DNA of 64,000 nucleotides. Source: Bacteroidota bacterium (GTDB lineage Bacteria > Bacteroidota > Ignavibacteria > Palsa-1295). Below, one piece after another: positions 5,529 to 64,000 of this stretch. The DNA lies in the NCBI GenBank assembly GCA_021324685.1, contig JAJPIQ010000069.1, positions 1-64,000 of the forward strand, read 5' to 3'. A program made the position numbers and the translations under genes. Under the pieces are notes generated by a model, which was not told where the DNA came from, made no database searches, and worked only from the letters and a program-made list of their open reading frames with translations. The stretch's first letter is position 1. Each line of letters begins with the position of its first letter.

Positions 5529-8500
5529 ATGAGAGCGCGTCTACTTTTCTTTAAGTTCTTATTGGCAGCCGCTGCGGTTCCCTCGGCTGCCCAAACGCCG
5601 AAGTGGCAGCAGATAGGCCTGCGTCTTGGCCTCGGAATCCAATGCGGATATTTCTGGAATCGCGGGGAAGGCGTGATCGCCACCGGCTCCGGGCAGTTTT
5701 ATTATTTACGTAACGGTGCCTGGCATGCCGGACTAAAATTGCCGTATGGCGCGCTCATCAATTCCATTCGTTGCTTCGACGGTAAAACTCTTTATGCCCC
5801 GGCGCTAAATCGATTCAATGGCGCAAGTCAATTATGGAAATCGGTCGATAGCGGAATCACGTGGTCCCAGGCGTCCGTTACGAACGCATGGCCCGGTCAG
5901 AGTAACAACGGACCCGATGTCTATTGGAGTTACCGCTCGAATGCTCCGGTCCTTTGGGGATCGACGGTCGTCCGACTCGATAGCCAGGACCTCGCTGCCA
6001 CGTTCGATTTTTTCGGCACCGGCCCGCCCAGCTATTCCACCGATGGCGGGCGTTCGTGGGTTACCAGGAGCCTTTTGTTCGATTCGATCACGGGATATAA
6101 TTATTACTCCGGATCCGGAGTCTGTGCGGACCGGATCAACAAACTCTATTACGCCACGTCGGAATCGGGTTATCCGGGAATGTTCCGCTCGACCGATTCG
6201 GGCCGGACGTGGATCTGCCTCGGTGGCTTGCCACAAACGCTCTTTATGATGGACGACGTCGAAGGCATTTATGACAAGACCTTCTTTCAAACGTCCAAAG
6301 GCATCTACGAAACGACCGATCGGGGCGCAACGTGGGTTCCCATCGGAGGACCGACGCGGCTCGTTTCCGACGACGCAAGATTTTGCGTCTTTGGATGTAC
6401 CGGCGAGGCCGTGATTGCATTCGACGATGGCGGCGGCGTATGGATCGCAAACGATTGGGACGCACCCGATCCCGCAGAACTCGCCTCCTCGTTCACGGCA
6501 TCGCCAAAAATATGCGACACCGCCGTTATCGTGGTCACGGCGCCCCGGAATTTCGAGCAGGGCCGGCTCCGCATCTCCGTTCTCGATTCGTCCGGATTGT
6601 TTTCGCTCCTCAGCCCGGACACGATCGCGCTCGATAGTGCCGCCCAGAAAATTCGCATCTCATTTTCCAGCAGGGACCTCGCAGAACATTCCGCGCAACT
6701 CTCGATCGAACCGCTCGATAGCGGACTCTGCCCGATTATCCATCCGATCTATGGCGAGGCGCGCCTCACGCCGCCCATCGTTTCCGTGGTGTCCCCCGTG
6801 GTGCTCTGTACGGCGGGGGCATCGGCCATTTATCTTTCGGACCTCGATTGCGATTCGCTGCGGATCTCAAAAATCTCCACCGGCCCCTCCATTCAGGTCC
6901 TGGCCTTCGACTCGGTCGTCCGCGCGGCCGACAGTGTTTTGCTTTCGGTCCTTCCCGCCGGCAAAGATACCACCGAACGTCTCACGGTTCGCATCGAAGG
7001 GACGCGGGAACCTTCCGGCGTGGCCTTCGACACCACCGTGGGAATTATCGTTACGACCTCTCACACCCGTTCGACGCTGGGATGGCCCTCCCAGTCCCAA
7101 ATGACCGTCGCGCAGCCCGATATCTGCACGGCCATCGATACCTCGATCATTATTTGGAATAACGGCTGCGATACCGTCCTGGTCGATCTCGCTTCCGGCA
7201 ACATGACGGGCGGCGGATGGTCGGTCATGGCGCGCAGCGGCATGCATGCCCTTTATCCGGGACAAACGGACACGATCCGCGTCCATTTTTTCTCCTCGGT
7301 CCCGGGGAAGTATCCCATTTCGCTCGAATACAGCTACCGTTATGGAGTGTCCCTGCAGGACCTCCTCGACTTCCAACTCACGGCCACGGTCCCGAGCGCC
7401 GGCCCGAGCGTGATGCTTGCCCCTTCGCGTTTCGATTTCGGGGACCGGTCGTTTTGCGATGGCGATACCACGGTCGATATGTCGTTCCAAAACCTGCGGT
7501 GCGACAGCGTTTGGGTTTCGAACGTTCACTTTTTGCATAGTAATTCGTTCCAGTTAGCGACGGCCTCGGACAGCCTGCTCCCACCCGCCGGTGTGTTGAC
7601 TGAAACCGTCTTTGCGACGGCTTCCCCGCGAGGTATCGCGCAGGACACGCTCGAACTCCATGTCTCGAACGCGAGCGGGACGTTTTCGCTCGATACCGTA
7701 ATCCCGTTTCGAATGAACATCGTGCGCGGCTCTGCGGCACTGAGCGTTTCGGCGGCGGCGGTTGACGTTGGCACGACCTATCGTTGCGAAGAACGCGATA
7801 CGTTCGTTGTCCTTCGGGATACCGGTTGCGATTCGGTCTGCATTACGGCGATTTCGCTTTCGGGAACCGGATTTACGATCGCCCGCGGTAACGAAGCGCG
7901 CTGTCTCGGAAGTAATGAGACCGACACGGTGTGGCTGCATACTGCGATCGATACCTCGGATCAGCAAATCGAGAACGTGGATACGTTACAGGTCGAAAAC
8001 GATGGGAGCGCATCGCTGGGCGCGGTGGTGTTATCGCGCGGGATTCAATATCCCACACCCTGGAAATTGCGCGTGCTCCCCGCCGGGAGCACGCGCGCCG
8101 GCTCGGACGAACGCCTCGAGATCGTTCAACGCGGCCGCCTGCCGGACGATGTAACGGCCCTCCGGTTTTCGCTTTTCTACGATGACGACATCCTCGGCTA
8201 TACCGGCGCAGACGAACCCGCCGTGAGTTCCCCTGTCTATTATCGCAGAGCCGATGGTGTAGCGTGCCAGACCTTCCTCATTTCTCCCGTGACCTCGGAC
8301 TCGATTCTTGCAACGCTCCATTTTACTCCGTACGTCACCCGAGCATCGAACACGGCGATAACGCTGGACAGTATTCAGCTTGTCTCTTCGTTCGACCGGC
8401 CGCAACCGTGCATTGCAACGATCGACACTTCGGGAACGACGTTCTCCCTGCTGGCGCAATGCGGTACCGAAGAACTTGCCGGATTTTTACGAAGCGGAAT

Positions 8501-8750
8501 CGTTCGGATCGACGAAGTCCATTCTTCCCAGCAGGGAATCGATTTTTCTATTTTTTCGAATTTCGATACTCCGGGTTCCGAACTCGCGATCAGCGATGCC
8601 CTCGGGAGGACGTGTTGGACGGGAAATATTTCCCTTGCGGAGGGAGAACATCGAATTTCGGTCGCCGCTGCCCTCCCGAGCGGGTTTTATATGGCCCGCC
8701 TTCGTTCGGAAGATGTTGTTTCGGCCAAAAAATTCGTTGTCAAAAATTGA
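5529..8750 (+). CDS. Giant T9SS-sorted surface protein, paralogue 1 (BNR/Ycf48-like plus Cys-pair Ig repeats plus cohesin-like module)
   Basis: 1073 residues. The signal peptide is MRARLLFFKFLLAAAAVPSAAQ. The N-terminal third (to about 330) has propeller-type Asp-box repeats such as YSTDGGRSW, STDSGRTW and TTDRGATW. The middle holds Ig-like modules with a regular cysteine pair: CTAGASAIYLSDLDC, CTAIDTSIIIWNNGC, CDGDTTVDMSFQNLRC and CEERDTFVVLRDTGC, each followed by D-S/T-V and hydrophobic strands. A cohesin-like module follows (LRFSLFYDDDILGYTG ... ILATLHFTPY). The end is a T9SS type-A sorting domain (ALGRTCWTG, LPSGFYMARLRS, KKFVVKN). Expected path: Sec export, then T9SS across the outer membrane. 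The next gene is a close paralogue, so this is a tandem duplication. The ligand or function is unknown. Confidence 0.85.
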   Translation: MRARLLFFKFLLAAAAVPSAAQTPKWQQIGLRLGLGIQCGYFWNRGEGVIATGSGQFYYLRNGAWHAGLKLPYGALINSIRCFDGKTLYAPALNRFNGASQLWKSVDSGITWSQASVTNAWPGQSNNGPDVYWSYRSNAPVLWGSTVVRLDSQDLAATFDFFGTGPPSYSTDGGRSWVTRSLLFDSITGYNYYSGSGVCADRINKLYYATSESGYPGMFRSTDSGRTWICLGGLPQTLFMMDDVEGIYDKTFFQTSKGIYETTDRGATWVPIGGPTRLVSDDARFCVFGCTGEAVIAFDDGGGVWIANDWDAPDPAELASSFTASPKICDTAVIVVTAPRNFEQGRLRISVLDSSGLFSLLSPDTIALDSAAQKIRISFSSRDLAEHSAQLSIEPLDSGLCPIIHPIYGEARLTPPIVSVVSPVVLCTAGASAIYLSDLDCDSLRISKISTGPSIQVLAFDSVVRAADSVLLSVLPAGKDTTERLTVRIEGTREPSGVAFDTTVGIIVTTSHTRSTLGWPSQSQMTVAQPDICTAIDTSIIIWNNGCDTVLVDLASGNMTGGGWSVMARSGMHALYPGQTDTIRVHFFSSVPGKYPISLEYSYRYGVSLQDLLDFQLTATVPSAGPSVMLAPSRFDFGDRSFCDGDTTVDMSFQNLRCDSVWVSNVHFLHSNSFQLATASDSLLPPAGVLTETVFATASPRGIAQDTLELHVSNASGTFSLDTVIPFRMNIVRGSAALSVSAAAVDVGTTYRCEERDTFVVLRDTGCDSVCITAISLSGTGFTIARGNEARCLGSNETDTVWLHTAIDTSDQQIENVDTLQVENDGSASLGAVVLSRGIQYPTPWKLRVLPAGSTRAGSDERLEIVQRGRLPDDVTALRFSLFYDDDILGYTGADEPAVSSPVYYRRADGVACQTFLISPVTSDSILATLHFTPYVTRASNTAITLDSIQLVSSFDRPQPCIATIDTSGTTFSLLAQCGTEELAGFLRSGIVRIDEVHSSQQGIDFSIFSNFDTPGSELAISDALGRTCWTGNISLAEGEHRISVAAALPSGFYMARLRSEDVVSAKKFVVKN

Positions 8751-8835: not shown

Positions 8836-11829
8836 ATGTGCATGCGAGTTTTTCGTGTCCTGTGGATGGCTGCAACGCTCGGCAGTGTTTTTTATTCGGC
8901 GCCGGTGCAGGCCCAGGGCGACCTGGCATGGCCGGAATGGCTTGAAATGGGCGGACTTGGAGGCCCGCGCCAACCGGTTAGCGGATACAACGCGTTTTTC
9001 TTTTTCGACGCGACGCACGGCGTGGCCGCTGTGAGCGGACCCCAGATTTATTATATTGGAAACGCTTCACAAAGCCAGTGGAACCGGGCGACGATCCCCG
9101 CCGGGTTTTCGACGGTCCGCTCGATCCGTTTCATTCAGGGAACGTTGTATGCGGCGAACGACGGCCCCGACGTGCTCCTCTCGAACGATTCCGGAAGAAC
9201 GTGGACGTTCGGAGGCCTGGGCCTTGGCAATGCAAACGATGTCTATACGGACGGCTCGGGAACGATCCATGCGTTGCACGACCCCATGAAGGTCTTTGCG
9301 CGGCTCGACTCGATGCATTGCATCGCGCAGGGCACCGCAGAAATTTTCGTTTCGAACGATGGCGGCCTCACCTGGACTTCCAGCGGAGTTCCTATGGTCG
9401 ACGACGCCAGCACGGGCGCCTTTGCCGACCCATGCCATATGGTGTATGTCTGCCCCAACAGTTACGGAACGGCGTTTCGCTCGACCGATCTTGGGCAGAC
9501 CTGGCGCAGCGTTCCCACCGGCTGCGGAACGGGCTCCGAATGGCTTGCCGGAGCGAGTACCGTTCCCTATGTCACGAGCGACGGCGGACTCTATCGCTCG
9601 ACCGACGACGGCGTCGACTGGGTCTCTGTTTATACCGTGACGGCCGGGCCCCATACACCGTTCTTTGTCTTCGGGCCGATGGGAGAGCACGTCGTCCTCG
9701 CATGGATGGGCTCCCCGAATGGCAACACGACGTGGATCACTTCGACCGGCGGCCTCGATGACCTTCATGGCGCGCCGAGCATGACCGATTCCAACGGCGC
9801 GCCGCTCATGCAGGAGGACACGATGAATGTCCCGCTCGAGCTGACCTCGATCTGCCAGCCATTCTATATTCCGGTCACGGTCGAGAGCGATGTGGACGGC
9901 ATGACGGTGCACGCGAGTATTGCAAAGGACAGCCTCGGTGATTTTTCGTTCCCAGCCACCGACACGACGGTCTCCCTTCGCAAGAATCATGAAGATACGC
10001 TCTGGCTGCGGTACCAGCCGCATCATGCGGCGAGCAATATCGTGCTGCAGTTCGAAAATCACTGGCAATGCTCGGACTGGACCGAAACGCGCGCGGTGCA
10101 CGTGGTCACCATTCCCGCCGCCCGCATCGCTCCTCCTCCGCTCTTTGCGGCCAGCTGCCGGCCGGATACCGAGGCGGCAGCGATCGAGATCGATTCGTGC
10201 GAAACGCTCATCATCGATTCGGTCGCCATTCCGGCTTCCCTCGCCTCGCAATTTCAACTCCTGACGCCGCTGCCGCTCACGGCGACGAACGCCGGCGGGA
10301 ACGCGCTCCGCTTCGTCTTTACCGCGCTCGGCCCGGGAACGATCAAGGACTCGATCGAAATTTTCGGGCATTATCTCGGCGTCGATTCCCTCCTCGACGA
10401 TTATTTTTACTTCCCACACGCCTGGGGCGACGATACCGATTTTTCCTCGTTCTATACGACGTTACCGATCACGCTCCGGGCCCTTGCGGCCAGTGGCGTG
10501 GCGCTGATATCGAACGATTCCGCCATTACGCTTTTTCGAGCCAATTATTGCGAGCACGAACTTGACACCTCCGTTCGATTTAAAAACAAGGGTTGCACGG
10601 CAGACACGATCCTCTCTTATTCGCTCTCCGGAACGGGATATTCGACGCCAGCGGTCACCCTTCCTATCATCGTTCCGCCGGACAGCACCGTCACCTTCCC
10701 GATCCGTTTTTACGGCACAGACACCGGTTCCTTCGCCGGAGCGCTCGCGCTCGAGATCGTTTCGGGTGAAACGAAGAACGTTGCCGTCTCCCTTTCCGGC
10801 GTAGGGTTCCCACCGGTCGGCGCACTCCAGGCAAACACCGTTTTTATCGACGCGGGCGCGACGAACCTCTGCGACGTGCGCGATACCTTTGTCGTGATTC
10901 GCGACACCGGTTGCGACAGCGTCAGCATCTCGGGCCTCACCCTCGTCGGGACCGGATGGTCGGTCCTCGATAGCGGAAGCTCGAAGATTGCTCCCGGCGA
11001 AGCCGATACGTTGCGCCTTGCTTCGCAGCCCGATACGAGCGGCCGGCCGTTCTCGAACACGGCGACCGTGACGGTCAACAGCGATGCGCGTCCGCCGCTC
11101 GGCGCCGTGACCTTTTCGCGTGAGATCGAGTATCCCATTGCCTGGAATCTCCAGCTTGTCATTAGCGATAGCGGAATTCCCGGGACCGACCAGGTCTTCA
11201 AACTCGTTCAGACCGCACAGCTTCCGCCGGACGTGACCGCGATCGACTTTACGCTCAGCTACGACGACGATCTTCTTCACTTTACCGGCTCGGACGATTC
11301 CTCGCTCGTCCCTGGGAACTACGTTCGAACGCCGGACGGACGCGCACATCAGGACTTTCATCTCAGCCCCGTCGATACGACGGCGCTTCTGGCCACGCTT
11401 CATTTCATGGACTATATCGCGCGCCATCTTCGGACGGCGGTTACCATCGAGAATATCTCTCTTCTTTCCTCGACCGGCCGCTCGAGCGATTGCATTGCAA
11501 GCATCGTGGAAGACAGTGCCCAGTTCGCCGTTGCCGGCTCGTGCGACGGACCGCTCCTCTCGGCGGCTTTAAGGAATGCCCTTGCGCTCGAGGGCATTCG
11601 ACCGAACCCCGCATCGAACCGAGCGGAACTGCATTATAGCCTGCAGGCGTCCAGGGAGACTCCACAAACATTAGAAATCGAAGACATGCTGGGGCGCCTC
11701 TGGGAATCGCAACCGATCGCGCTCGAGCCCGGCCGGGACCATACTCTTTCGCTCGACCTTTCGTCGCTGCCCACGGGCGTCTATCTTGTCCGCATCGCCC
11801 AACAGGAAGTCAAGATAGTGAAAGAGTAA
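8836..11829 (+). CDS. Giant T9SS-sorted surface protein, paralogue 2
   Basis: 997 residues with a signal peptide ending near APVQAQ. It has the same module order as its upstream neighbour 85 bp away: Asp-box propeller repeats (SNDSGRTW, SNDGGLTW, STDLGQTW, STDDGVDW), Ig-like modules with Cys pairs (CRPDTEAAAIEIDSC, CEHELDTSVRFKNKGC, CDVRDTFVVIRDTGC), a cohesin-like module (IDFTLSYDDDLLHFTG ... LLATLHFMDY) and a sorting domain with RPNPASNRAELHY, LGRLWES and LPTGVYLVRIAQQ. The stretch from CDVRDTFVV to the cohesin-like part parallels the neighbour almost motif by motif, so the pair arose by duplication. No hairpin terminator is visible between them, so they may be co-transcribed. Confidence 0.85.
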   Translation: MCMRVFRVLWMAATLGSVFYSAPVQAQGDLAWPEWLEMGGLGGPRQPVSGYNAFFFFDATHGVAAVSGPQIYYIGNASQSQWNRATIPAGFSTVRSIRFIQGTLYAANDGPDVLLSNDSGRTWTFGGLGLGNANDVYTDGSGTIHALHDPMKVFARLDSMHCIAQGTAEIFVSNDGGLTWTSSGVPMVDDASTGAFADPCHMVYVCPNSYGTAFRSTDLGQTWRSVPTGCGTGSEWLAGASTVPYVTSDGGLYRSTDDGVDWVSVYTVTAGPHTPFFVFGPMGEHVVLAWMGSPNGNTTWITSTGGLDDLHGAPSMTDSNGAPLMQEDTMNVPLELTSICQPFYIPVTVESDVDGMTVHASIAKDSLGDFSFPATDTTVSLRKNHEDTLWLRYQPHHAASNIVLQFENHWQCSDWTETRAVHVVTIPAARIAPPPLFAASCRPDTEAAAIEIDSCETLIIDSVAIPASLASQFQLLTPLPLTATNAGGNALRFVFTALGPGTIKDSIEIFGHYLGVDSLLDDYFYFPHAWGDDTDFSSFYTTLPITLRALAASGVALISNDSAITLFRANYCEHELDTSVRFKNKGCTADTILSYSLSGTGYSTPAVTLPIIVPPDSTVTFPIRFYGTDTGSFAGALALEIVSGETKNVAVSLSGVGFPPVGALQANTVFIDAGATNLCDVRDTFVVIRDTGCDSVSISGLTLVGTGWSVLDSGSSKIAPGEADTLRLASQPDTSGRPFSNTATVTVNSDARPPLGAVTFSREIEYPIAWNLQLVISDSGIPGTDQVFKLVQTAQLPPDVTAIDFTLSYDDDLLHFTGSDDSSLVPGNYVRTPDGRAHQDFHLSPVDTTALLATLHFMDYIARHLRTAVTIENISLLSSTGRSSDCIASIVEDSAQFAVAGSCDGPLLSAALRNALALEGIRPNPASNRAELHYSLQASRETPQTLEIEDMLGRLWESQPIALEPGRDHTLSLDLSSLPTGVYLVRIAQQEVKIVKE

Positions 11830-19348: not shown

Positions 19349-22045
19349 CTAACGAAGAATCGAAATGGAAAGAGCTTTGCGTGACTGAGGCAATTCTATC
19401 CGAAGCCAATAATTCCCATTCGGCAACGCCGGCAGAACGATACTGCGGTCGCCGCTCTGCGCCGGCGCCACCACTCGATCGACGATTTGGCCGATTGCAT
19501 TATAGATGACAACAGAAATATCGCCGTTGGAATCGGGAATACCGGAAACGAACAACACTTCGTCCTTCAGCGGATTAGGATAAACTCCAAACGAATGCGC
19601 TTCCGGAGGCAACGGTGCAACGCTCGAGGCCGGATATCCCGCCAGTGCCGAAAGTGGACGGAGGTGCATGTTATCCGGGGCAATACTGTATTCCACAGCA
19701 CTGTCATCCCAGCCTTCATTGACAAAACGGATCGTGTGCAGCCCCGCTGTAAGATATATGCTCGGCAGGACCGCAGAATCGCGAATGATCGATCCCCCGT
19801 TCGGTGTTGCAAAAAACCAGTCATGCAGTCCAAGATCGCTTTCATCTATATAGGTCCGATAGATACCATATCGTTTATCGCCCACGCCAAACACGGTGGT
19901 CGAAAAGGTATCCGCAAACGGAACTTGAAATTGAAAATCGAATTCTGAACCACGCTTCCAATTCCCATTGCAAAAAGCGATCGCTCCCTGGCTCCAGTAT
20001 CCCGGTTGATAGACATATGAATACGTTGCACCGCCATTCGGATTTGGCAGGAGTTCAAATTCGTAATTCAGCGTGCGCGTCACAAAGAGACTGGAATCCG
20101 AAATAATAGATCCGCCGGACTCCCTTTTGACTTGCACACGATAATGACCTTCCGGGACCCAGGGTAAAAATAGTTTTGCGCGGAATACTCCATCGGTATC
20201 GGCAACGATCGTCGAGGGATTCGAGAACAGAGAATCTCCGAGCAGAAGTGTGAGTCGTTCCCCCGAATGAAAGCCATATCCGCGAAGTTCGATCGAATCG
20301 CCCTCGCTAAAACAGCGGTTGGCCGTATCCTGGACATAGCGGAGCTTCGGTACGGCAAGCACCGTAATTCGTTCCGGGTGCTGAATGCCATTGATGGAAA
20401 ACGTGTGATCTCCGACCGCCCACGAATTCGGGACCGCAAGCCTGAACGCGATCGACCCATCGGCGCCCGCATACCCACGATAAATAGTGTCCGCATCCAG
20501 CAACGCGACGATCGGAAGATCGGGGGCATAACCAGCACCCGTAACCGCCCACGTGTTTCCGGCAACGATCGTGTCCGACGACGGGTAAAAAGGGGTCCAG
20601 TCGGTGTAATAGAACGATGTGGTCCGGTACGTGGTCGTATAATCGTTCCGGAAGCCGTGCCCCCAGTCGATGTCAATGGACCTGGTATAGATATAAGGAT
20701 CGTCGATATGAAACCGATACATGGTAGGCCATCGAATGGGGCATCCGCTGAACGGAAGAGAAAAGATGCTGCTCGGATGGCCGTCGCTATCGCTAAAATA
20801 CCATCCGGCATTACAATAATCTTCCGTTCCCGTATAATCGATCGAGGGACCGAGAAACGAAATAGGAACGGAATCGACCGTCATATATCCGTCCCCCTCC
20901 ATAAAGATCGGCACCGAATATTTTGAATCGGGATAATTGAAGATCGCACCGATATAACGCCCAGCTCCTTTAGCATGAAGAACCGGGTGCAGGAGACCGA
21001 CCGCAATCTCAGGGGTCACATGATATTGGGTTGCAAAATATCCAAAATGCCGGTCCCAGGAAGTCGGTTGGTAACGAACGCTGCCTTGCAGCGAAACGGA
21101 AGTCGGATTCTTATTGATCAACACGATTTTGGCATTGCTCCGAAAGGGCATGGGGAAGAAACAATCGAGCGTCGAATTCGCAGAATCGACCGCCAATCGA
21201 AACGATCGAATCGATCGGACGCCCATCGCAATGCCAAAAAAATCGGAAAGAGGAAGTTGAATGCTCGGCGTCGGGCATCGGTCCCAAAAGCATTCAAGCC
21301 ACAGATTGTGCAGGACCGCGGTGTCGAGCGTAGGGAATGCAAAGTGCAGATCGTCAATATAGGCCGGACCTGTAAGCATCGTCACGACCATCGTGTCCTG
21401 CGATGCGGCGGTCCCTCCAAAGATCGCGGAAACACTATCGCGCCAGGGGTCGCTCTTCCAGTAGTTCACTTCGGCCTCGGATTGCAAGCTATCAAAAAGA
21501 TTGCTACCCATGCCGGGAACGAAAACTTTGGCGGTGTCTATTCGCTGCCATTCCGCATCACGAACGAGCCAGCAATAGGCATTGGTCCACCGGAACGAAT
21601 GCTTGTAGGGTATTTGTGTTTCGCAATCGTAACCGCCGGCAATGGCCGTATCGAAGGGATTTCGAATCACGCCATGCGCTTTTCGAAAAAAATCTTCTGC
21701 GGGACCATCGATCAGCAGAGAATCGTCGACCCAGAGCCGCAAGCGGGCCGAGTCCGGAGCATGGCCGCCGCTGAATGTAGCCCAGAAGTGCCTCAGAATT
21801 CCCGGACCGGTATCCGATGCAAGAATCGCATAGCCATCCGTATCGAGCGGCCCGTAATAATCGTCCCAGCGGAAGGCCCGCATGACAGGCGCACTATCGG
21901 CTCCGCCTAAATCCGCGATAGCTAGCGGATCGTTCATCCGTCGATACGGATCGAGTGTGTCCCTGTGGATGGCTTGTGCCTGCGCAACGTTGGAAACGAG
22001 CAGGACGAAGAATAGGAGAAGAAAAATTCGACCGGGCGTGACCAT
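19349..22045 (-). CDS. Secreted DUF2961 (GH172-like) protein with T9SS sorting domain
   Basis: 898 residues from ATG 22045, with a signal peptide (MVTPGRIFLLLFFVLLVSNV). The DUF2961 core includes GPGILRHFWATFSGG, LRLWVDDSLLIDGPAEDFF, FPMPFRSNAKIVLINKN, FMEGDGYMTVDS and YTGTEDYCNAGW. DUF2961 is now GH172, which includes difructose-dianhydride and D-arabinofuranoside hydrolases. The Glu residues in MEGDG and GTEDY are the plausible catalytic pair. Ig-like modules follow, then a type-A sorting domain (YPNPLKDEVLF, YNAIGQIVDR, LPNGNYWLRI). A minus-strand TAAATTTG box (22066-22073) lies about 20 bp upstream. The PAP2 gene starts 3 bp downstream, so both may be co-transcribed. Confidence 0.85.
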   Translation of the reverse strand: MVTPGRIFLLLFFVLLVSNVAQAQAIHRDTLDPYRRMNDPLAIADLGGADSAPVMRAFRWDDYYGPLDTDGYAILASDTGPGILRHFWATFSGGHAPDSARLRLWVDDSLLIDGPAEDFFRKAHGVIRNPFDTAIAGGYDCETQIPYKHSFRWTNAYCWLVRDAEWQRIDTAKVFVPGMGSNLFDSLQSEAEVNYWKSDPWRDSVSAIFGGTAASQDTMVVTMLTGPAYIDDLHFAFPTLDTAVLHNLWLECFWDRCPTPSIQLPLSDFFGIAMGVRSIRSFRLAVDSANSTLDCFFPMPFRSNAKIVLINKNPTSVSLQGSVRYQPTSWDRHFGYFATQYHVTPEIAVGLLHPVLHAKGAGRYIGAIFNYPDSKYSVPIFMEGDGYMTVDSVPISFLGPSIDYTGTEDYCNAGWYFSDSDGHPSSIFSLPFSGCPIRWPTMYRFHIDDPYIYTRSIDIDWGHGFRNDYTTTYRTTSFYYTDWTPFYPSSDTIVAGNTWAVTGAGYAPDLPIVALLDADTIYRGYAGADGSIAFRLAVPNSWAVGDHTFSINGIQHPERITVLAVPKLRYVQDTANRCFSEGDSIELRGYGFHSGERLTLLLGDSLFSNPSTIVADTDGVFRAKLFLPWVPEGHYRVQVKRESGGSIISDSSLFVTRTLNYEFELLPNPNGGATYSYVYQPGYWSQGAIAFCNGNWKRGSEFDFQFQVPFADTFSTTVFGVGDKRYGIYRTYIDESDLGLHDWFFATPNGGSIIRDSAVLPSIYLTAGLHTIRFVNEGWDDSAVEYSIAPDNMHLRPLSALAGYPASSVAPLPPEAHSFGVYPNPLKDEVLFVSGIPDSNGDISVVIYNAIGQIVDRVVAPAQSGDRSIVLPALPNGNYWLRIELPQSRKALSISILR

Positions 22046-22065
22046 TTGGCTAAATTGAATTAGCA

Positions 22066-22073
22066 CAAATTTA
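22066..22073 (-). promoter_or_regulatory. Candidate Bacteroidota -7 box for the GH172-like gene
   Basis: TAAATTTG on the minus strand matches TAnnTTTG and ends 20 bp before the ATG. No clear TTTG -33 element is visible at the expected distance, so this is tentative. Confidence 0.3.
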
Positions 22074-28878: not shown

Positions 28879-28922
28879 TTTGCTTTACTTTTTATTGCTA
28901 TTTGCTTTACTTTTTATTGCTA
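28879..28922 (+). repeat. Perfect 22-bp tandem duplication at the start codon
   Basis: TTTGCTTTACTTTTTATTGC plus TA occurs at 28879-28900 and again at 28901-28922. The second copy's final A is the first base of the ATG of the next gene. Confidence 0.9.
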
Positions 28923-30634
28923 TGAAGATCTTTTCCATATTTGCGTTCCTTCTCTTCTTCGCCACGTTTCAAACTCCTGCGTTCGCCCAGCATCCGGTCC
29001 TGTTCGAGACATTCACGAATACCTGCGACCCGTGTCCGGACGGCTTACGCCCGACATTCGACCAGGCGGTGAGTTCGGTCCTCTCGAGCGAAGGCTCGAA
29101 GATCATTTATCTCAATTATCATATCGGAAATTTCTGCGACCCGATGGCCCAGCCTTCGAGCCCGTATACCGATCCCGTCGACCAACGACTGACTGGGAAC
29201 AGTTCACAACTGACCGCGTACGTCGGCGCCGTGAACCGGACCGATTTTGGCAGCGGACACGCCAGCGGAACGGGAACCGATTGGGCGGGTGAGATCGAGC
29301 AGGCTTCGGCCAGCACGCCGCCCGCGACGATCACGCTCCAAAGTGCGTCACTCGATAAAACCTCAAGCGGCCTTAGTTATACGCTACGGGCGACGGTTAC
29401 CGTGACCGCGACCCAGAGCATTCCGGATAATATCAATATCTTTTTCGCCGTCGTTGGAGACGGTATCAATCTGCCTTCGACCACCAACGGTATTTGCCAG
29501 AAAAATCCCGGTGCGGAACCGCTCGGTCCCTATAATTCGATCGTCTGGTACATTACGGGAGGAACCGGAATCAGCGTATTTTCCGGTGGGGCGAGTTCCG
29601 GGAAAACCAAACAAATTTCTTTTACGGAAGCGCTGGCCAATCCGCACCAGGACCCGTTGTTCGACTGGACGAAAATGCGGCTGATCGCATTTATCGAGGA
29701 ATCCTCTAATGCCACCGATTATCGTGTGGTCAATGCAGCCGATCTTCGGGACGATCTCGATACGCTGCAGCCACCGCCGCCAACGTTGAGTTTCGGATAT
29801 CTTTCGAGCGCGAACGATACGCTCGCTCCCGGGACCGATGTCCAGGTGAATTATTCGAGCTCGAATCTGCCCAGCGGAGCGAACGCCTTCTATTCGCTCG
29901 ATAATGGGACGACGTGGCGCCTCATCGGCGACAGCTTACAGAGCGGCTTTACCTGGCATGTGCCCGACTCGCTCACGACCCAGGGCAAGATCAAACTCGT
30001 CGCCTCCAGCGATCCCACGATCGTTTCGATCGAATCGGGGAATTTTGTGATCGCCTATGCGCCGTTTATTTCATTTGTCTATCCACAGAACGGTTCCAAA
30101 CTCAAAGCCGATACGACGCTCACGATTCAATGGAGAAAACTCGGCGTCGGAGCCGTGAAAGTGCAGTATTCGATTGCGACGTCGAACGGCGCCTTTGGCC
30201 TGCCATGGTTCCCGATCGCTTCGAGTGTAACCGATACGTTCGTGACCTGGGCGGTACCCGATACGAACGCCATTGCAGAAATCCAATTAGTACCGATCAA
30301 GAACGAAGCGCCTGCGGCATCGAGTATCGATACCATTCGGAAGTTGTTCCAGCAATCGTCAGTGGGACCGGTCGTAAACGCATCGGCACTCCAGTTCACG
30401 GGAGCGTTCCCAAATCCGGCGATGAACGGTGAAGAGATCGAACTTCCGTACCATGCCGACCGGCCGTTCGAGGTCGAAGTAGTCGACCTTCTCGGTCACT
30501 CGGTGGGAGCGACGTATCACTTCGATACTCAGGCGGTGCATCTCGATACACGATCGTTGAGTGCCGGTGCCTACATTGTGCGCATGTCAGATGGCGTTCA
30601 CAGTGCGTCGGAACGAGTCGAAGTTGTTCGCTAA
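28922..30634 (+). CDS. Omp28-like secreted protein with CxxC motif and T9SS sorting domain
   Basis: 570 residues from ATG 28922, with signal peptide IFAFLLFFATFQTPAFAQ. Directly after it comes VLFETFTNTCDPCPDGLRP, the Omp28-type thioredoxin-like start with a CxxC pair, and later IIYLNYHIGNFCDPM. Bacteroidota Omp28-like proteins share this arrangement; a redox role is possible but unproven. From about residue 300 there are Ig-like modules (VQVNYSSSNLPSGANAFYSL, LTIQWRKLG). The end is a type-A sorting domain (FPNPAMNGEEIEL, VVDLLGHSVG, LSAGAYIVRMSDG). The region just before the ATG is tandemly duplicated. Confidence 0.82.
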   Translation: MKIFSIFAFLLFFATFQTPAFAQHPVLFETFTNTCDPCPDGLRPTFDQAVSSVLSSEGSKIIYLNYHIGNFCDPMAQPSSPYTDPVDQRLTGNSSQLTAYVGAVNRTDFGSGHASGTGTDWAGEIEQASASTPPATITLQSASLDKTSSGLSYTLRATVTVTATQSIPDNINIFFAVVGDGINLPSTTNGICQKNPGAEPLGPYNSIVWYITGGTGISVFSGGASSGKTKQISFTEALANPHQDPLFDWTKMRLIAFIEESSNATDYRVVNAADLRDDLDTLQPPPPTLSFGYLSSANDTLAPGTDVQVNYSSSNLPSGANAFYSLDNGTTWRLIGDSLQSGFTWHVPDSLTTQGKIKLVASSDPTIVSIESGNFVIAYAPFISFVYPQNGSKLKADTTLTIQWRKLGVGAVKVQYSIATSNGAFGLPWFPIASSVTDTFVTWAVPDTNAIAEIQLVPIKNEAPAASSIDTIRKLFQQSSVGPVVNASALQFTGAFPNPAMNGEEIELPYHADRPFEVEVVDLLGHSVGATYHFDTQAVHLDTRSLSAGAYIVRMSDGVHSASERVEVVR

Positions 30635-31019: not shown

Positions 31020-34000
31020 ATGAGAATCATGAAGCGCTTTGCGCTTTGGCTGGTCCTGATCGTCCCAGTCCCCGCTTCGGGACAATGGTCCCTGTTACAT
31101 ACGTTCCATACAAACGATGGGATTCTTTACATGGTCTATTTCATGGACTTTGTCGGCAATCCTTCCGCCGGGTTTGTTGGGATCGATGGAACCCTGTATC
31201 GAACCGGCGATGGCGGTGCAACCTGGGGTGCGGTCCTTCCAAATTTATCGGGACATCCGAGCAGCGTCTGTTTCAAGAATGCGGTCGTCGGATGGTGTAC
31301 GGTCGATGGGGGTCTGGTCGGGAATCCGGCCGTTTATAAAACAACGGATGGCGGTGGTTCGTGGACAGGACTTAGTATTGCCGGTCAGGGTAGTGACGTT
31401 TCCTACAACGCGGCGACCGGCCGCCTTCTGGTCTCTATCCGCTCAGCCAACGTCCAGGCGTCATATACCTCTACGGACGATGGTGCAACGTGGACTGCGA
31501 TCAGCAATGTGACAAGCCAGAATGGCTTCGCCTTCTGCAACGGCCAGCAAGGAATTCTTTCGTCCTATGCGCCCTCCGCAGCAGGGACGCCGTTCTATCG
31601 TACCAATAATGGCGGTCAGACCTGGACCAGTCTTAACGTGTTCATTCATTCCTGGTCGCCGTGCGCGGTTCCCGGAACGAATACGATCGTCGCGGCACAG
31701 GACCAATCGTCTTCTATTTGGGCTTCGACCGATGCCGGGGTAACATGGAACGTTACGTCCAACGTCTCTCCCGATCATTTAACCGGGTGCGTACAGTCCG
31801 GCCCGTGTAATATGTACATCCAAAGCTACGATGGATTGTATGTCTCGGGCGATTTGAAAACGTGGACATGGATCCGCGGTCCCGGCAACACGTACGACAC
31901 CCGTTTTTTTGTCGGTAAAACGACCGTGTACGCGGGGGATGCTTCTACGGGTAGTTTGTATGAATTTCAATCGGGTATAGGCGACTGGCCGACGCTCCGA
32001 TTTACTCCAGCTTCCATCACGGTTTCGGCAGCGGCCAACTGTCCTGCCCAAACGGCATTTGCAGCGTTTCAAAATCTTTCATGCCTTCCACTTACGGTAT
32101 TAAGCGCCTCGATCACCGATTCCAGTGTATGGCACCTGGTGCGGCGGCCACTGCCGGCCGTTGTTCCCACGGGCGACTCGGTCGGATTTCAATTGATCAC
32201 GCTCAACGATACCAGTGGCACATTTACCGGCGGTCTGCAACTTCTTATTCAGACGACCGGCGGCCTTACGGATACGACATTAAAAGTCGTACTCCAAATT
32301 GCAGGGATCGTTTCCCCCACGATCCAGCCGATCAGTGTTACGCTCGCGGACCGATGCCTGGAACTCGATACGGTGGTGCAGCTTCGCAATAATCATTGCG
32401 ATACGATCGTGCTCGATTCTCTGGCAATGCAAAAAAGCGGACTGTTCCTTAACGGGAATATTTCCCTGCCGATTTCCATCCCGCCGGACTCCGAATGTAC
32501 CCTTCCGTTCCGTGCGCGCCCGAAAGATCGAGGAACGTTCAGCGATACCGCGTTCATTCGCCTCCGTTGCCACGGGTACACGCTCGATACGACGATCGCG
32601 CTCGAAGGCAGCGTTCATTCGTCCTTCATCTCGGCCGATCTTACGCCACAGGCAGCGAATTTCCATACGGTCGATGCGTGTCAGGAGTCGTTCGATACGG
32701 TGTATCTTCGAAATACCTCCTGCGACTCGGCAAAGCTCACGGAGCTTTTTTTGAGTGGAACGAAATTCCAGATCCTTCAACCCCAGTTGAACCAGTGGAT
32801 TGTCGATAACGACAGCATCGCGATCATTCTTGCCCTCCCCGGGAATACGGCACCGGGAACGTATTCCGATGAACTCGATCTGATGCTGGATAACGGCGGC
32901 ACGCAGCAATTCTACGCGCTGCCGGTCTCCGCAACGGTGGTAAAGATGGCGCCCGAGAAATTCGTTACACCGGCAACGGTCCAGCGTGACAGCATTCCGC
33001 TGTGCACGACGTTTGACACGACGATCGTTTTTACGGCTCAGACCGGTTGCGATTCGATCTCGATCTCGAGCCTCCAATATGTCGGTACCGGTTCGGTTTT
33101 CCTTCAAACCAAGCCAGCACTACCGGCGGAACTTCATTCCGGGGACACGATTCGGTGTACGCTGAGTTGGAACGCGCCGGCCTCCGCAACGCTGGACGGC
33201 TCGCTCACGGTAGTGGGAACGGGATTCGACACCGTCGTTCCGGTCCACCTTTCGATGCGAGCCGATTCTGGTAATGATGTTACTTTAAGTATTCCGAAAA
33301 CGGCGTTCGTCGCCAGTGCGTGTGCGATCGACTCCACCGATCTCTCGATTATCAATCGGGGTTGTGCGGCGCTCGCATTCGATACGGTGGGAATCGTGGG
33401 TCCAATGGGAGCCTTTAGCATCGCCGCGAGCTCCCTTCCTATTGTCCTTGCGCCCGATTCGAGCACAATCATTCGAGTCTATTTTAACGGCGCAACCGCT
33501 TCGAGTGGAACAGCGACGCTTCATGCGCATGAAATGAGCGGAATGGTCCGCGATATTCCACTTTCGGGAACATTTATTCCGCTCGATACGGCGCGGGTCG
33601 CTCTACGGCTGCTCGCAGGGTCTTCCCCGACCCTTCCTGCTGGCAACACGACCGGGTTCGCGCTCTATTTTGCCGATTCTGTTGCGGCCGAAACACAACT
33701 CCAAACGTTCGATTGCACGCTCGACTTCGACCAAAACATCCTCGGACTCCTCAACAATCCGGTAGGAACGAATGGTTGGAATATTCAAACGGTGGTCTCG
33801 GGCGCCGGATCGATGCGCTTGTCCTGCTCGCGAAGTTCCACGAGTCCCATCTCTCCGAATGAAACGATCGGGACGTTCTTTGCCGAGGCCTTCGTTTCGG
33901 ATTCCCTGCATACGCCCCTCACGCTGGAGCACGTTACGTTTACACCGAACGATCCCTCGTATGAACATTGCGTTCTGGCATCGGCGATCGATCCGCCCGC

Positions 34001-34337
34001 ACTTTCCTTCCAGGTGGAGAACCAATGCGGCGATAGTATCCTCATCCGTTCGATGCGCTCCGAGCCGATCATCGAAGCCATCGCGGTCCAGCCCAATCCG
34101 CTTGAACGCTCTTCGAATCAAACGCTTCTGGTAACCATTGAGGCCAGGACGACCACAACGGCCGATCTTAGGCTGCTCGACCTCCTGGGACGAACCCGAA
34201 TGGAGTTACAGGAACTGCTTAACAAAGGGCCAAACGCACTCGAACTGCCAGTATCCTCGATCGAGCATGGCGCTTATGTGCTTGAAGCGAACGCTCAGGG
34301 GTATCGCGCACTTAGGCAGGTTGTAATTCTTCCCTGA
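31020..34337 (+). CDS. Giant T9SS-sorted surface protein, paralogue 3
   Basis: 1105 residues from ATG 31020, the start that gives a signal peptide (FALWLVLIVPVPASGQ). Propeller-type Asp-box repeats follow (GDGGATWG, TDGGGSWTG, STDDGATWTA, NNGGQTWTS, STDAGVTWN). Five Cys-pair Ig modules come next: CPAQTAFAAFQNLSC, CLELDTVVQLRNNHC, CQESFDTVYLRNTSC, CTTFDTTIVFTAQTGC and CAIDSTDLSIINRGC. A cohesin-like module (FDCTLDFDQNILGLL ... IGTFFAEAFV) and a sorting domain (VQPNPLERSSNQTLL, LLDLLGRTRME, IEHGAYVLEANAQ) finish it. It has the most Cys-pair modules of the four paralogues. Its 3' end overlaps mfd on the other strand by 26 bp. Confidence 0.85.
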   Translation: MRIMKRFALWLVLIVPVPASGQWSLLHTFHTNDGILYMVYFMDFVGNPSAGFVGIDGTLYRTGDGGATWGAVLPNLSGHPSSVCFKNAVVGWCTVDGGLVGNPAVYKTTDGGGSWTGLSIAGQGSDVSYNAATGRLLVSIRSANVQASYTSTDDGATWTAISNVTSQNGFAFCNGQQGILSSYAPSAAGTPFYRTNNGGQTWTSLNVFIHSWSPCAVPGTNTIVAAQDQSSSIWASTDAGVTWNVTSNVSPDHLTGCVQSGPCNMYIQSYDGLYVSGDLKTWTWIRGPGNTYDTRFFVGKTTVYAGDASTGSLYEFQSGIGDWPTLRFTPASITVSAAANCPAQTAFAAFQNLSCLPLTVLSASITDSSVWHLVRRPLPAVVPTGDSVGFQLITLNDTSGTFTGGLQLLIQTTGGLTDTTLKVVLQIAGIVSPTIQPISVTLADRCLELDTVVQLRNNHCDTIVLDSLAMQKSGLFLNGNISLPISIPPDSECTLPFRARPKDRGTFSDTAFIRLRCHGYTLDTTIALEGSVHSSFISADLTPQAANFHTVDACQESFDTVYLRNTSCDSAKLTELFLSGTKFQILQPQLNQWIVDNDSIAIILALPGNTAPGTYSDELDLMLDNGGTQQFYALPVSATVVKMAPEKFVTPATVQRDSIPLCTTFDTTIVFTAQTGCDSISISSLQYVGTGSVFLQTKPALPAELHSGDTIRCTLSWNAPASATLDGSLTVVGTGFDTVVPVHLSMRADSGNDVTLSIPKTAFVASACAIDSTDLSIINRGCAALAFDTVGIVGPMGAFSIAASSLPIVLAPDSSTIIRVYFNGATASSGTATLHAHEMSGMVRDIPLSGTFIPLDTARVALRLLAGSSPTLPAGNTTGFALYFADSVAAETQLQTFDCTLDFDQNILGLLNNPVGTNGWNIQTVVSGAGSMRLSCSRSSTSPISPNETIGTFFAEAFVSDSLHTPLTLEHVTFTPNDPSYEHCVLASAIDPPALSFQVENQCGDSILIRSMRSEPIIEAIAVQPNPLERSSNQTLLVTIEARTTTTADLRLLDLLGRTRMELQELLNKGPNALELPVSSIEHGAYVLEANAQGYRALRQVVILP

Positions 34338-47071: not shown

Positions 47072-47578
47072 ATGTGGTACACTACATTTGTCGTTCTTCA
47101 TATTTTAAGCGCCGGCATTGTCATCGGCTTGATCACTCTTAGCGTCATCGGTGCTTCGATGCGTAAAAAAGTGCGCGGCACGATGGGCGAACTGGCTGCG
47201 ATCCGTTCGGGCGCGATGATTTCCCCTATCATGGCAAACATCGGCAGTATCGGTCTGCTCGTCAGCGGTGTCGTTCTCACACTCCTGCAATATTCGTTTT
47301 TCCCGTTTGGCACGATGCCGTGGCTCGCATTGATGCAGACCGATTACGTCGTCATCATGGCAATTTCAGGAGCGTTTCTGGCACCGAACGGAAAGAAAAT
47401 TCTCGCCGCGGCCAACGCCGAGATTGCAAGCCCGGGTGCGGGCTCCGGCGCAAGCGAAAGCCTGCGGAGTATGGTCGATCGGCAATATGCGGTTGTCATG
47501 CTCGTGGGGTTCCTTGTGCTGCTCGCGGTGATCTTAGGGGAGTCCAAAGCGATGATGTGGGCGGCCGGCATCCAATAA
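47072..47578 (+). CDS. Small four-TM membrane protein (DUF2269-like)
   Basis: 168 residues. Hydrophobic spans: TTFVVLHILSAGIVIGLITL, ISPIMANIGSIGLLVSGVVL, WLALMQTDYVVIMAISGAFL and YAVVMLVGFLVLLAVILG. The opening with a histidine in the first span (LHILSAG) resembles DUF2269-type proteins. No catalytic motif. It lies 27 bp after the tail-fibre-like gene and 5 bp before the delta-60 gene, so the three probably form one transcript. Confidence 0.65.
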   Translation: MWYTTFVVLHILSAGIVIGLITLSVIGASMRKKVRGTMGELAAIRSGAMISPIMANIGSIGLLVSGVVLTLLQYSFFPFGTMPWLALMQTDYVVIMAISGAFLAPNGKKILAAANAEIASPGAGSGASESLRSMVDRQYAVVMLVGFLVLLAVILGESKAMMWAAGIQ

Positions 47579-47583
47579 AGTTT

Positions 47584-62308: not shown

Positions 62309-64000
62309 TCATCGAACAATCGTAACCTCTCTGACAAGATCGCCAAAATCGCTCTTTATTAGCAGAAAATAAGCACCGCTCGCAGCATGGACCGGAAGCA
62401 CAACGTTATCCGCGCCAGCAAACAGGGAACATTCCCCGATGTTTTCCACGATGTCGCCCCGGTCGTCCGCAAGCAGGAAACGGCAATTGGTCTCCCGTTT
62501 TAGATCGAGCGATAATTCGATCTTAGAACCGCCGCCTAAGGACTGCACGGCGATGCCATTCACCGCGATGGGAATTTGCAACAGAGCATCGCCCAGCAAC
62601 GAATCTCCGCAGAAGCGATCGATCGTGAGTTCCACGCCGGCGGGAACCGCTTGTGGCGCAAGTACGCACCGCGCAAAATCGGAATCGTCATGGTTAAACG
62701 CCACCTTCTCAATGGTCAGCGTTCCTGATCTCGGCTCCGAAAACGCTGTGGTAAAGTAGGCCTGAACGATCGGAGTCCCGGCTGTCAGGGCAAGGGACGT
62801 GTTACTGGTAAGATCGAGATCGAGCGTCCCCAGTCCACGCTCTACGGCCGTCTCCGACCATCCGCCGGATATATGACATTGACCGGAATAGGTCAAAAGA
62901 TCGCTATCGAACGATACCGTCGCATGGATCGCTGTAAGACCGAGCGAGTCGGGAACGTTGTCCATCGGCCGAATCAGGAACGACACGGTGTCCTGCGGAA
63001 CGCGATGAACGGCGCTCGTGCCGTCGGACGCTTCCAGCGCCATTCGAGCGATCGCAGGACGCGTTGTCGTGATGGCAGAGAGCGGAATGCTTCCCGACAC
63101 TCTGCCATCCGCCGTGCGATAGACAAGGGACGAAGAATGATCCAGTGTATCTTCCGCACTGTAAAGGATTTGCATCGTGACCGAATCGCCCGGAGCTACA
63201 ACGGTATCGCGCCATGCGCCAAGCATCGCAAAGGTATTGGAATCGGTAAGCGCCAGACCTTCGAGTTCCACAGGGCCGCACGTGCCGTTCTTCCACACAA
63301 AATGTTTCGCGTCGCTCGAACAAAGCTTCGCATGAAAAACAGTGTCCGGCGCGCGAACGGCAAGTTCGGTGCCACCAATATTGTTGGACGCTGCGAGTGC
63401 AACGAACGTATCGATAGAAGTTCCCACGATATGGACGGCATTGGTACTGGCCGAGTCGCTCGTGGTGCGGACATGAATTCGCAACGTTTCCGAATCCCCC
63501 GGCGCAAGTTCGATCTCACCCGTGCTATCGAGCGAGAACCAGGTTCCCAGAGCACGGAGCGAAGCCGACAGTGCGATACTTTGACACCGCGAAGCATTCC
63601 TGATCGAGATCGATGTATCGAGCGATGAACACGGCGAAAGATCCGCGGACGTTATCGAGGTTGGCGCAATCTGGATATGCGGAGTATCGGCAACGATGAT
63701 ACCATGAAGTTGGACGGTAAGCGATTGTTCGGCACCCGCAGAGTCCTGTAAAATAAAGGTCACCGAATCTGTTCGTTCCCCGCCGGAATTGGGACGAAGA
63801 CCAATGAGCACTTCTGTGCTGTCACCGGGAGCGATCCAGGTATGAAGCGGCGGAGCAAGAAGTTCGAACTCGGAATTCTGCGGCGCTTCGAAGCTAACGA
63901 TTTGCGTCGAAAGGCACGATTCATCGTGAATAAAGGAGATCCGCTCATTGGTGTCGCAAATGAGCAACGAACCGAATTCAAGGGCACTGTCGGAAAGCGT
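62309..64000 (-). CDS. Giant T9SS-sorted surface protein, paralogue 4 (3' part; 5' end off the window)
   Basis: The frame is open to the right edge, so the start and any signal peptide and propeller lie outside the window. About 563 residues are visible. Cys-pair Ig modules: CDTNERISFIHDESC, CSSLDTSISIRNASRC and CSSDAKHFVWKNGTC. A cohesin-like module follows (IHATVSFDSDLLTYSG ... IVQAYFTTAFSEPRSGTLTI, then CVLAPQ and FCGDSLLGDALLQ). The sorting domain reads LGGGSKIELSLDL, FLLADDRGDIVENI and SGAYFLLIKSDFG. The module order equals that of the genes at 5529, 8836 and 31020. It converges on the terminator at 62248-62280. Confidence 0.83.
   Translation of the reverse strand, partial: TLSDSALEFGSLLICDTNERISFIHDESCLSTQIVSFEAPQNSEFELLAPPLHTWIAPGDSTEVLIGLRPNSGGERTDSVTFILQDSAGAEQSLTVQLHGIIVADTPHIQIAPTSITSADLSPCSSLDTSISIRNASRCQSIALSASLRALGTWFSLDSTGEIELAPGDSETLRIHVRTTSDSASTNAVHIVGTSIDTFVALAASNNIGGTELAVRAPDTVFHAKLCSSDAKHFVWKNGTCGPVELEGLALTDSNTFAMLGAWRDTVVAPGDSVTMQILYSAEDTLDHSSSLVYRTADGRVSGSIPLSAITTTRPAIARMALEASDGTSAVHRVPQDTVSFLIRPMDNVPDSLGLTAIHATVSFDSDLLTYSGQCHISGGWSETAVERGLGTLDLDLTSNTSLALTAGTPIVQAYFTTAFSEPRSGTLTIEKVAFNHDDSDFARCVLAPQAVPAGVELTIDRFCGDSLLGDALLQIPIAVNGIAVQSLGGGSKIELSLDLKRETNCRFLLADDRGDIVENIGECSLFAGADNVVLPVHAASGAYFLLIKSDFGDLVREVTIVR

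Follow-up and report, generated by a model that had tools for sequence, protein, structure and literature searches.

Divergent cohesin-fold modules ahead of T9SS-type C-terminal tails in a Bacteroidota family without detected dockerins

In the gingipain RgpB, an IgSF domain precedes the CTD and, in the account given in PMC4804311, may act as a spacer or insulator, with the length of the junction influencing anchoring. The CTD is removed by the sortase PorU, which attaches A-LPS (PMC5445135). Cohesins, too, are known in T9SS-anchored proteins: such a scaffoldin has been described, together with dockerin-bearing enzymes, in Cloacimonadota (PMC8542988). Outside such systems, the TMEM132 proteins offer a precedent for a cohesin homologue with dockerins undetectable, at least as they are described in PMC6030884. 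The 64,000-nucleotide stretch of Bacteroidota DNA analysed here (hereafter, the window) encodes four proteins of about 1,000 to 1,245 aa with a module of ~153 to 165 residues located immediately before a C-terminal tail, the end of the module lying 84 to 92 residues from the C terminus in all four; a cohesin-like module ahead of the sorting domain had been noted in the sequence-only reading of this DNA. This module is a divergent cohesin-fold β-sandwich and represents a variant of that fold tied to T9SS cargo.

The four carrier proteins and their parts are listed in Table 1. The Ig-like stalk of P0001 was assigned from relatives and from its sequence pattern, with no passing Pfam hit in this protein. 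The true start of P0003 is probably internal, before MRIMKRFALWLVLIVPVPASGQ. The fourth protein (P0004) belongs to a 1245-aa frame on the contig that extends beyond the window. Full-length relatives of P0002 (L095; 45% identity over 985 residues) and of P0003 (L086; 41% over 1,111 residues) are encoded in G164, one of the three genomes of a single GTDB family, representing two genera, that were compared in this work (the others are G000, which is the genome at hand, and G208). The heads, scanned in the four window proteins and in seven others (one of the seven being the full-length fourth protein), are unrelated to each other and include BNR/sortilin-like, SBBP propeller plus DUF7948, and IgGFc_binding types. 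In one 992-aa protein with an IgGFc_binding head (L123; G000:C15:215600-219200), residues 517 to 585 give a cohesin match of 29.8 bits, above the Pfam cut-off, upstream of the terminal module, so that this protein contains more than one cohesin-type domain.

Table 1. Positions of the carrier proteins, modules, tails, quoted peptides, and related proteins in the window
Feature	Position	Strand	Remarks
P0001, 1073 aa	5529..8750	+	Signal-like N terminus, weak sortilin/BNR-type head, Ig-like stalk, module, T9SS-type tail
Quoted peptide 1, FSLFYDDDILGYTG	8166-8207	+	Placed here by the sequence-only reading
Cohesin-fold module 1	8034..8492	+	In P0001; the locus originally noted; ends CGTEELAGFLR
P0001 T9SS-type tail, diverged	8550..8747	+	PF18962 12.8 bits and TIGR04183 21.2 bits, both under cut-off
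P0002, 997 aa	8836..11829	+	Architecture as in P0001
Cohesin-fold module 2	11116..11574	+	In P0002
Quoted peptide 2, FTLSYDDDLLHFTG	11248-11289	+	Had been placed at 8836
P0002 T9SS C-terminal sorting tail	11602..11823	+	Over cut-off
DUF2961 protein	19349-22066	-	T9SS tail over cut-off; no module
Protein with no other passing domain	28880-30634	+	T9SS tail over cut-off; no module
P0003, ORF of 1188 aa	30771..34337	+	BNR/Ycf48-type head
Cohesin-fold module 3	33564..34058	+	In P0003; ends CGDSILIRSMR; modelled alone
Quoted peptide 3, CTLDFDQNILGLL	33714-33752	+	Had been placed at 31020
P0003 T9SS-type tail, diverged	34059..34334	+	PF18962 15.1 bits, below cut-off
Propeller-like protein	47320-49263	+	T9SS tail over cut-off; no module
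667-aa protein	49266-51269	-	BNR_2 repeats and HYDIN-type Ig domain, like the carriers; no module match
Fourth protein (P0004), C-terminal 563 aa	62309..64000	-	BNR head, HYDIN-type Ig stalk
Fourth protein, tail-like C terminus	62312..62581	-	Unmatched by PF18962, TIGR04183, and the tail profile
Cohesin-fold module 4	62582..63070	-	In the fourth protein; ends CGDSLLGDALL
Quoted peptide 4, ATVSFDSDLLTYSG	62882-62923	-	Had been placed at 62309

The modules had been recognised from four quoted peptides, all of which exist in the translated sequence, although only the first was correctly placed; the positions given for the other three are near gene starts or ends. Each peptide is followed by a LATLHF-, IGTFF-, or VQAYF-like strand and then a Cys-Gly/Asp motif, where the same reading had given a LATLHF/IGTFF-like strand and CGxxLL or similar. 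With a profile made from 40 non-window members (first collected with profiles that included window members), only these four of the 363 stop-to-stop ORFs in the window were matched, with E values of 4e-31, 6.2e-27, 6e-19, and 9.6e-18. The description of the following region as a sorting domain holds for P0002, which passes both the Pfam (27.4 bits versus 27) and the TIGR04183 (24.0 versus 23) cut-offs. The regions in P0001 and P0003 score below these cut-offs and are probable tails, supported by a profile derived from the tails of 16 other carriers (E 4.5e-9 and 2.1e-11, respectively), and the tail of the fourth protein, which no profile recognises, is putative. The same tail profile matches 6 of the 11 tested carriers without a listed tail. 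In three more window proteins, the T9SS tail passes the Pfam threshold.

Whether the module is a cohesin depends on the method that is asked. Searched with PF00963 (cut-off, 24.1 bits), P0001, P0003, and P0004 give no row at E ≤1, whereas module 2 gives a weak match of 11.8 bits against that cut-off; among 18 collected modules, 4 match at E ≤1, the best of them with E 0.0056. The module is therefore not filed as a PF00963 member. On the other hand, hhalign aligns a set of 14 modules, gathered by the four window modules and without use of the cohesin model, to 30 cohesins of the phylum over 109 columns with a probability of 96.4% (E 1.2e-9), as against 1.5% or less in seven control comparisons with reversed sequences, upstream Ig regions, and tails. 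In a search of 177,635 PDB sequences with the 18-module profile, cohesin or scaffoldin chains account for 10 of the 12 matches (best E 0.0014), and 7urp and HYDIN for the other two; 5nrk and 5nrm are labelled endoglucanase in this search and cohesin in the Foldseek listing.

The predicted structure points the same way. For the P0003 module alone, AlphaFold2, given an alignment of 5 rows (L146 plus the four modules of the window), produced a model with a mean pLDDT of 75.5 and a pTM of 0.71 that is weak around the Cys pair (pLDDT about 50 to 64). In Foldseek, Clostridium perfringens cohesin-like modules rank first (E 6.8e-8), and the 50 matches listed comprise 42 cohesin, scaffoldin, or cellulosomal multimodular proteins, 1 unnamed C. 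perfringens GH84 interaction module, and 7 others. VIA-align returns a Z score of 14.2 to both 2w1n and 2vo8 (rmsd of 2.7 Å over 134 residues for the latter), and unrelated sandwiches, such as CLIPPER (9ifr), pilins, and integrin, reach 10 to 11 compared to 14 for the best cohesins. Assignment to another Ig-like family was rejected on the basis of these lower Z scores and the failure of upstream Ig regions and tails to align. Thus, the label "cohesin-type" used in the sequence-only reading is supported by profile-profile comparison, the PDB sequence search, and the predicted fold, while the modules stay under the Pfam cohesin cut-off. In a second model, of the P0001 module together with its tail, the tail appears as a seven-strand region; the domain arrangement in this model was set aside because its pTM is 0.46 and the Cys pair is modelled with low confidence, and a fold search with it returns cohesins mixed with long multidomain proteins, e.g., transglutaminases.

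For the P0003 module, most of the listed structural matches to cohesins stop at residues 150 to 157, and the helix predicted at residues 157 to 165, within the CGDSILIRSMR motif, is located beyond them. Conservation is strongest at this C-terminal junction, beyond the aligned core of the cohesin fold, where it takes the form of two cysteines followed by a short C-G-x-x-x-L helix. The junction (residues 154 to 165) averages 2.25 bits of column information, versus 0.86 to 1.59 bits in the other segments. In A6, the 44-member module alignment and profile, Cys155 is kept in 44 of 44 members, and Cys136 and Gly156 are each found in at least 90%. A larger set of 46 modules, from which L140 (E 0.061) had been left out, still contained L133 (without the CG motif) and L096 (94.8% identical to L097), both removed before A6. 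In this set, CG is present in 42 modules and CG[DN] in 34, and the second Cys lies 90 to 113 residues from the C terminus in all 46. A [PS]NP motif is found in 34 modules, with the second Cys 19 to 24 residues ahead of it in 32 of them and 30 residues ahead in the other 2. The two cysteines probably form a disulfide.

The CG motif is absent from all 40 further proteins with a T9SS tail that were examined in this genome, namely, those ranking highest in the tail list once neighbours of strong modules had been omitted; the idea that T9SS junctions in general carry it was rejected on this basis. L187, one of these 40, also counts among the 33 module places of this genome; like L191, it matches the module weakly and lacks the motif. 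The GD..LLRYL look of CGDxxLRxYL had also suggested a remnant of a dockerin helix, an origin that we do not claim, there being no intermediate among the listed loci from the same taxonomic class.

With the A6 profile, at E ≤0.001, there are 33 module places in G000, 35 in G164, and 23 in G208; an earlier profile had found 28 in G000 at the same threshold. In the phylum, the earlier profile matched 29 of 395 genomes at 1e-5, with at most 9 candidates per genome scored; on that basis, only G000, G164, and G208 have matches below 1e-17, and other phylum genomes reach 2.7e-10 at best. Many of the weaker matches within the same taxonomic class are also located 88 to 130 residues before the C terminus, and several of them share the two cysteines but lack the helix motif that follows. 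Better cohesin matches, with E 1e-5 or better, number one in G000, three in G164, and none in G208. In a search of G000 with the Pfam cohesin model, a single place scored above the cut-off (L001/L141; G000:C75:21223-21627; 43.4 bits); it belongs to a frame of 1937 aa, is followed at once by a weak match to the T9SS tail, and contains a Cys close to its end without the CG helix motif. G000 also encodes recent-looking paralogue pairs, L131/L132 and L126/L128, whose modules, at 62% and 69% identity, are closer than those of most pairs.

Components of the export pathway are encoded in the same genomes. SprA_N and the PorU sortase score over cut-off in all three family genomes (677 bits for PorU in G000). 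T9SS tails are found in at least 150 places in G000 (150 of 192 candidates scored, E ≤1), and, among the tail matches listed, one begins within 400 bases after 21 of the 33 own-genome modules. The module thus appears to be a standard pre-tail domain across a large set of surface proteins in this Bacteroidota family. Such a pre-tail β-sandwich might have spread simply by duplication of whole C termini and contribute nothing beyond length and stability; the low identity of the members to P0003 (13 to 42%) and the existence of T9SS-tail proteins without a module are consistent with this. We nevertheless consider it unlikely that the module is filler of this kind, as the invariant Cys, near-invariant Gly, and nearly fixed spacing persist across three genomes and two genera.

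The sequence-only reading reported no dockerin in the window and argued that, if the modules are true cohesins, secreted dockerin-bearing partners should exist and the carriers would act as surface scaffolds. The first statement is borne out and can be extended: PF00404 finds no dockerin in the window or anywhere in the genome. Indeed, none of the three family genomes has a PF00404 match, compared to 135 positive genomes among the 395 of the phylum, and a profile made from 8 phylum dockerins likewise finds none in G000, G164, or G208 at E ≤10, although it retrieves both control genomes at ~1e-18; searches of this type would miss non-homologous or strongly diverged dockerins. The expectation of partners is therefore not supported. 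The cohesin fold of the predicted model would suit a scaffold, as would the Cloacimonadota precedent and the co-occurrence of the two domains in the phylum, where dockerins are found in 75 of 94 cohesin-positive genomes and 60 of the 301 remaining ones (Fisher p 7e-26, uncorrected for kinship). Among the 29 genomes positive for the module profile, some of which contain ordinary cohesins caught by that profile, dockerins are present in 10. However, the family genomes encode 33, 35, and 23 modules with no partner found, the cohesin core is weakly conserved compared to the junction, and, instead of the several tandem cohesins typical of scaffoldins, each of the four window proteins has a single significant module match, with no tandem array. 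A true cohesin-dockerin scaffold thus seems very improbable. The module most likely binds no dockerin, and, because a partner was not found, it is not filed as a functional cohesin. In another family within the same taxonomic class, L147 (G377) and L148 (G259) have a dockerin close to the cohesin-type domain on its N-terminal side, the two being reported in the same 818- or 1812-aa frame; L152 (G070) shows the order cohesin, then dockerin.

As the genome searches revealed no matching dockerin, a spacer role beside the export and anchoring tag becomes the likelier one. We therefore favour, as probably correct, the reading that in T9SS cargo the cohesin-fold module acts as a spacer and a junction for processing, by analogy with the IgSF domain of RgpB and independently of dockerins and presumably of any protein ligand. 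The carriers would follow the order of a Sec signal, a propeller or IgGFc-binding-like head, a HYDIN/ASH Ig-like stalk, the cohesin-fold module, and the T9SS tail. The module would form a rigid spacer, probably stapled by the disulfide, between cargo and tail, and the CGxxxL..L helix would set the cleavage and anchoring junction ~22 residues before the first conserved motif of the tail. The T9SS sortase might then act at this helix-positioned junction, whose distance would be fixed by the Cys-bounded helix. A spacer role does not require the cohesin fold, and the module is missing from many other proteins of this genome that have a T9SS tail (40 examined).

The main rival to the spacer reading is a module for adhesion or network formation, which would bind another surface protein, a glycan, or a homologous module in place of a dockerin, as has been proposed for the cohesin-Ig ectodomain of TMEM132. 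Cohesin-type and Ig-like domains are combined here as they are there, the TMEM132 precedent lacks detectable dockerins as well, and the large paralogue expansion would fit such a role. Against it, conservation peaks at the tail junction and not in the cohesin core, and a fixed place beside the tail suits secretion better than ligand binding; we regard adhesion as rather unlikely. A possible, though still doubtful, elaboration is that the dockerin-free cohesin and its Cys-stapled CGxxxL..L helix constitute a second, conformational signal for secretion or anchoring, with the sortase or the shuttle machinery reading module and helix in addition to the tail. If so, the cohesin fold, otherwise a means of assembling complexes, would have been redeployed for protein export in a lineage-specific class of cargo.

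Irrespective of the exact role, a usable profile and signature now define a large family below the Pfam cohesin cut-off, and the occurrence of a cohesin fold in a secreted protein should not be taken as evidence of a cellulosome-like system. With 23 to 35 copies per genome and one constant junction, these modules provide a concrete case for the part played by a pre-tail domain in T9SS export and anchoring. Among the titles listed in searches of open-licence papers, none deals with a pre-tail cohesin-like T9SS module, although one may have been published elsewhere.

Among known systems, the scaffoldin-like protein of "Ca. Stygibacter" (Cloacimonadota) similarly combines cohesin-type domains with a T9SS-type CTD; as described in PMC8542988, however, its cohesins are in tandem and accompanied by carbohydrate-binding modules, and dockerin enzymes are encoded in the same genome, whereas here each window protein has a single module and the genome no detected dockerin. 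The TMEM132 ectodomain, likewise described as joining a cohesin homologue to tandem Ig-like domains with no detectable dockerins (PMC6030884), belongs to animal membrane proteins and has the cohesin before the Ig domains, whereas here the module follows them. In fold, the module is closest to cohesin modules from C. perfringens GH84C and GH33 (PDB 2w1n, 2jh2, and 2vo8), with which it shares the β-sandwich at about 10 to 14% identity. Compared to the PF00963 cohesins, it adds the Cys pair and a C-terminal helix beyond the aligned fold, in a genome without a detected dockerin. With RgpB, it shares the arrangement of a β-sandwich directly before the T9SS sorting tail and a short linker between them (PMC4804311). 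The sandwich of RgpB, however, has an Ig-superfamily fold instead of a cohesin fold, and its linker is described there as disordered, whereas in the proteins analysed here the residues just after the sandwich are predicted to be helical.
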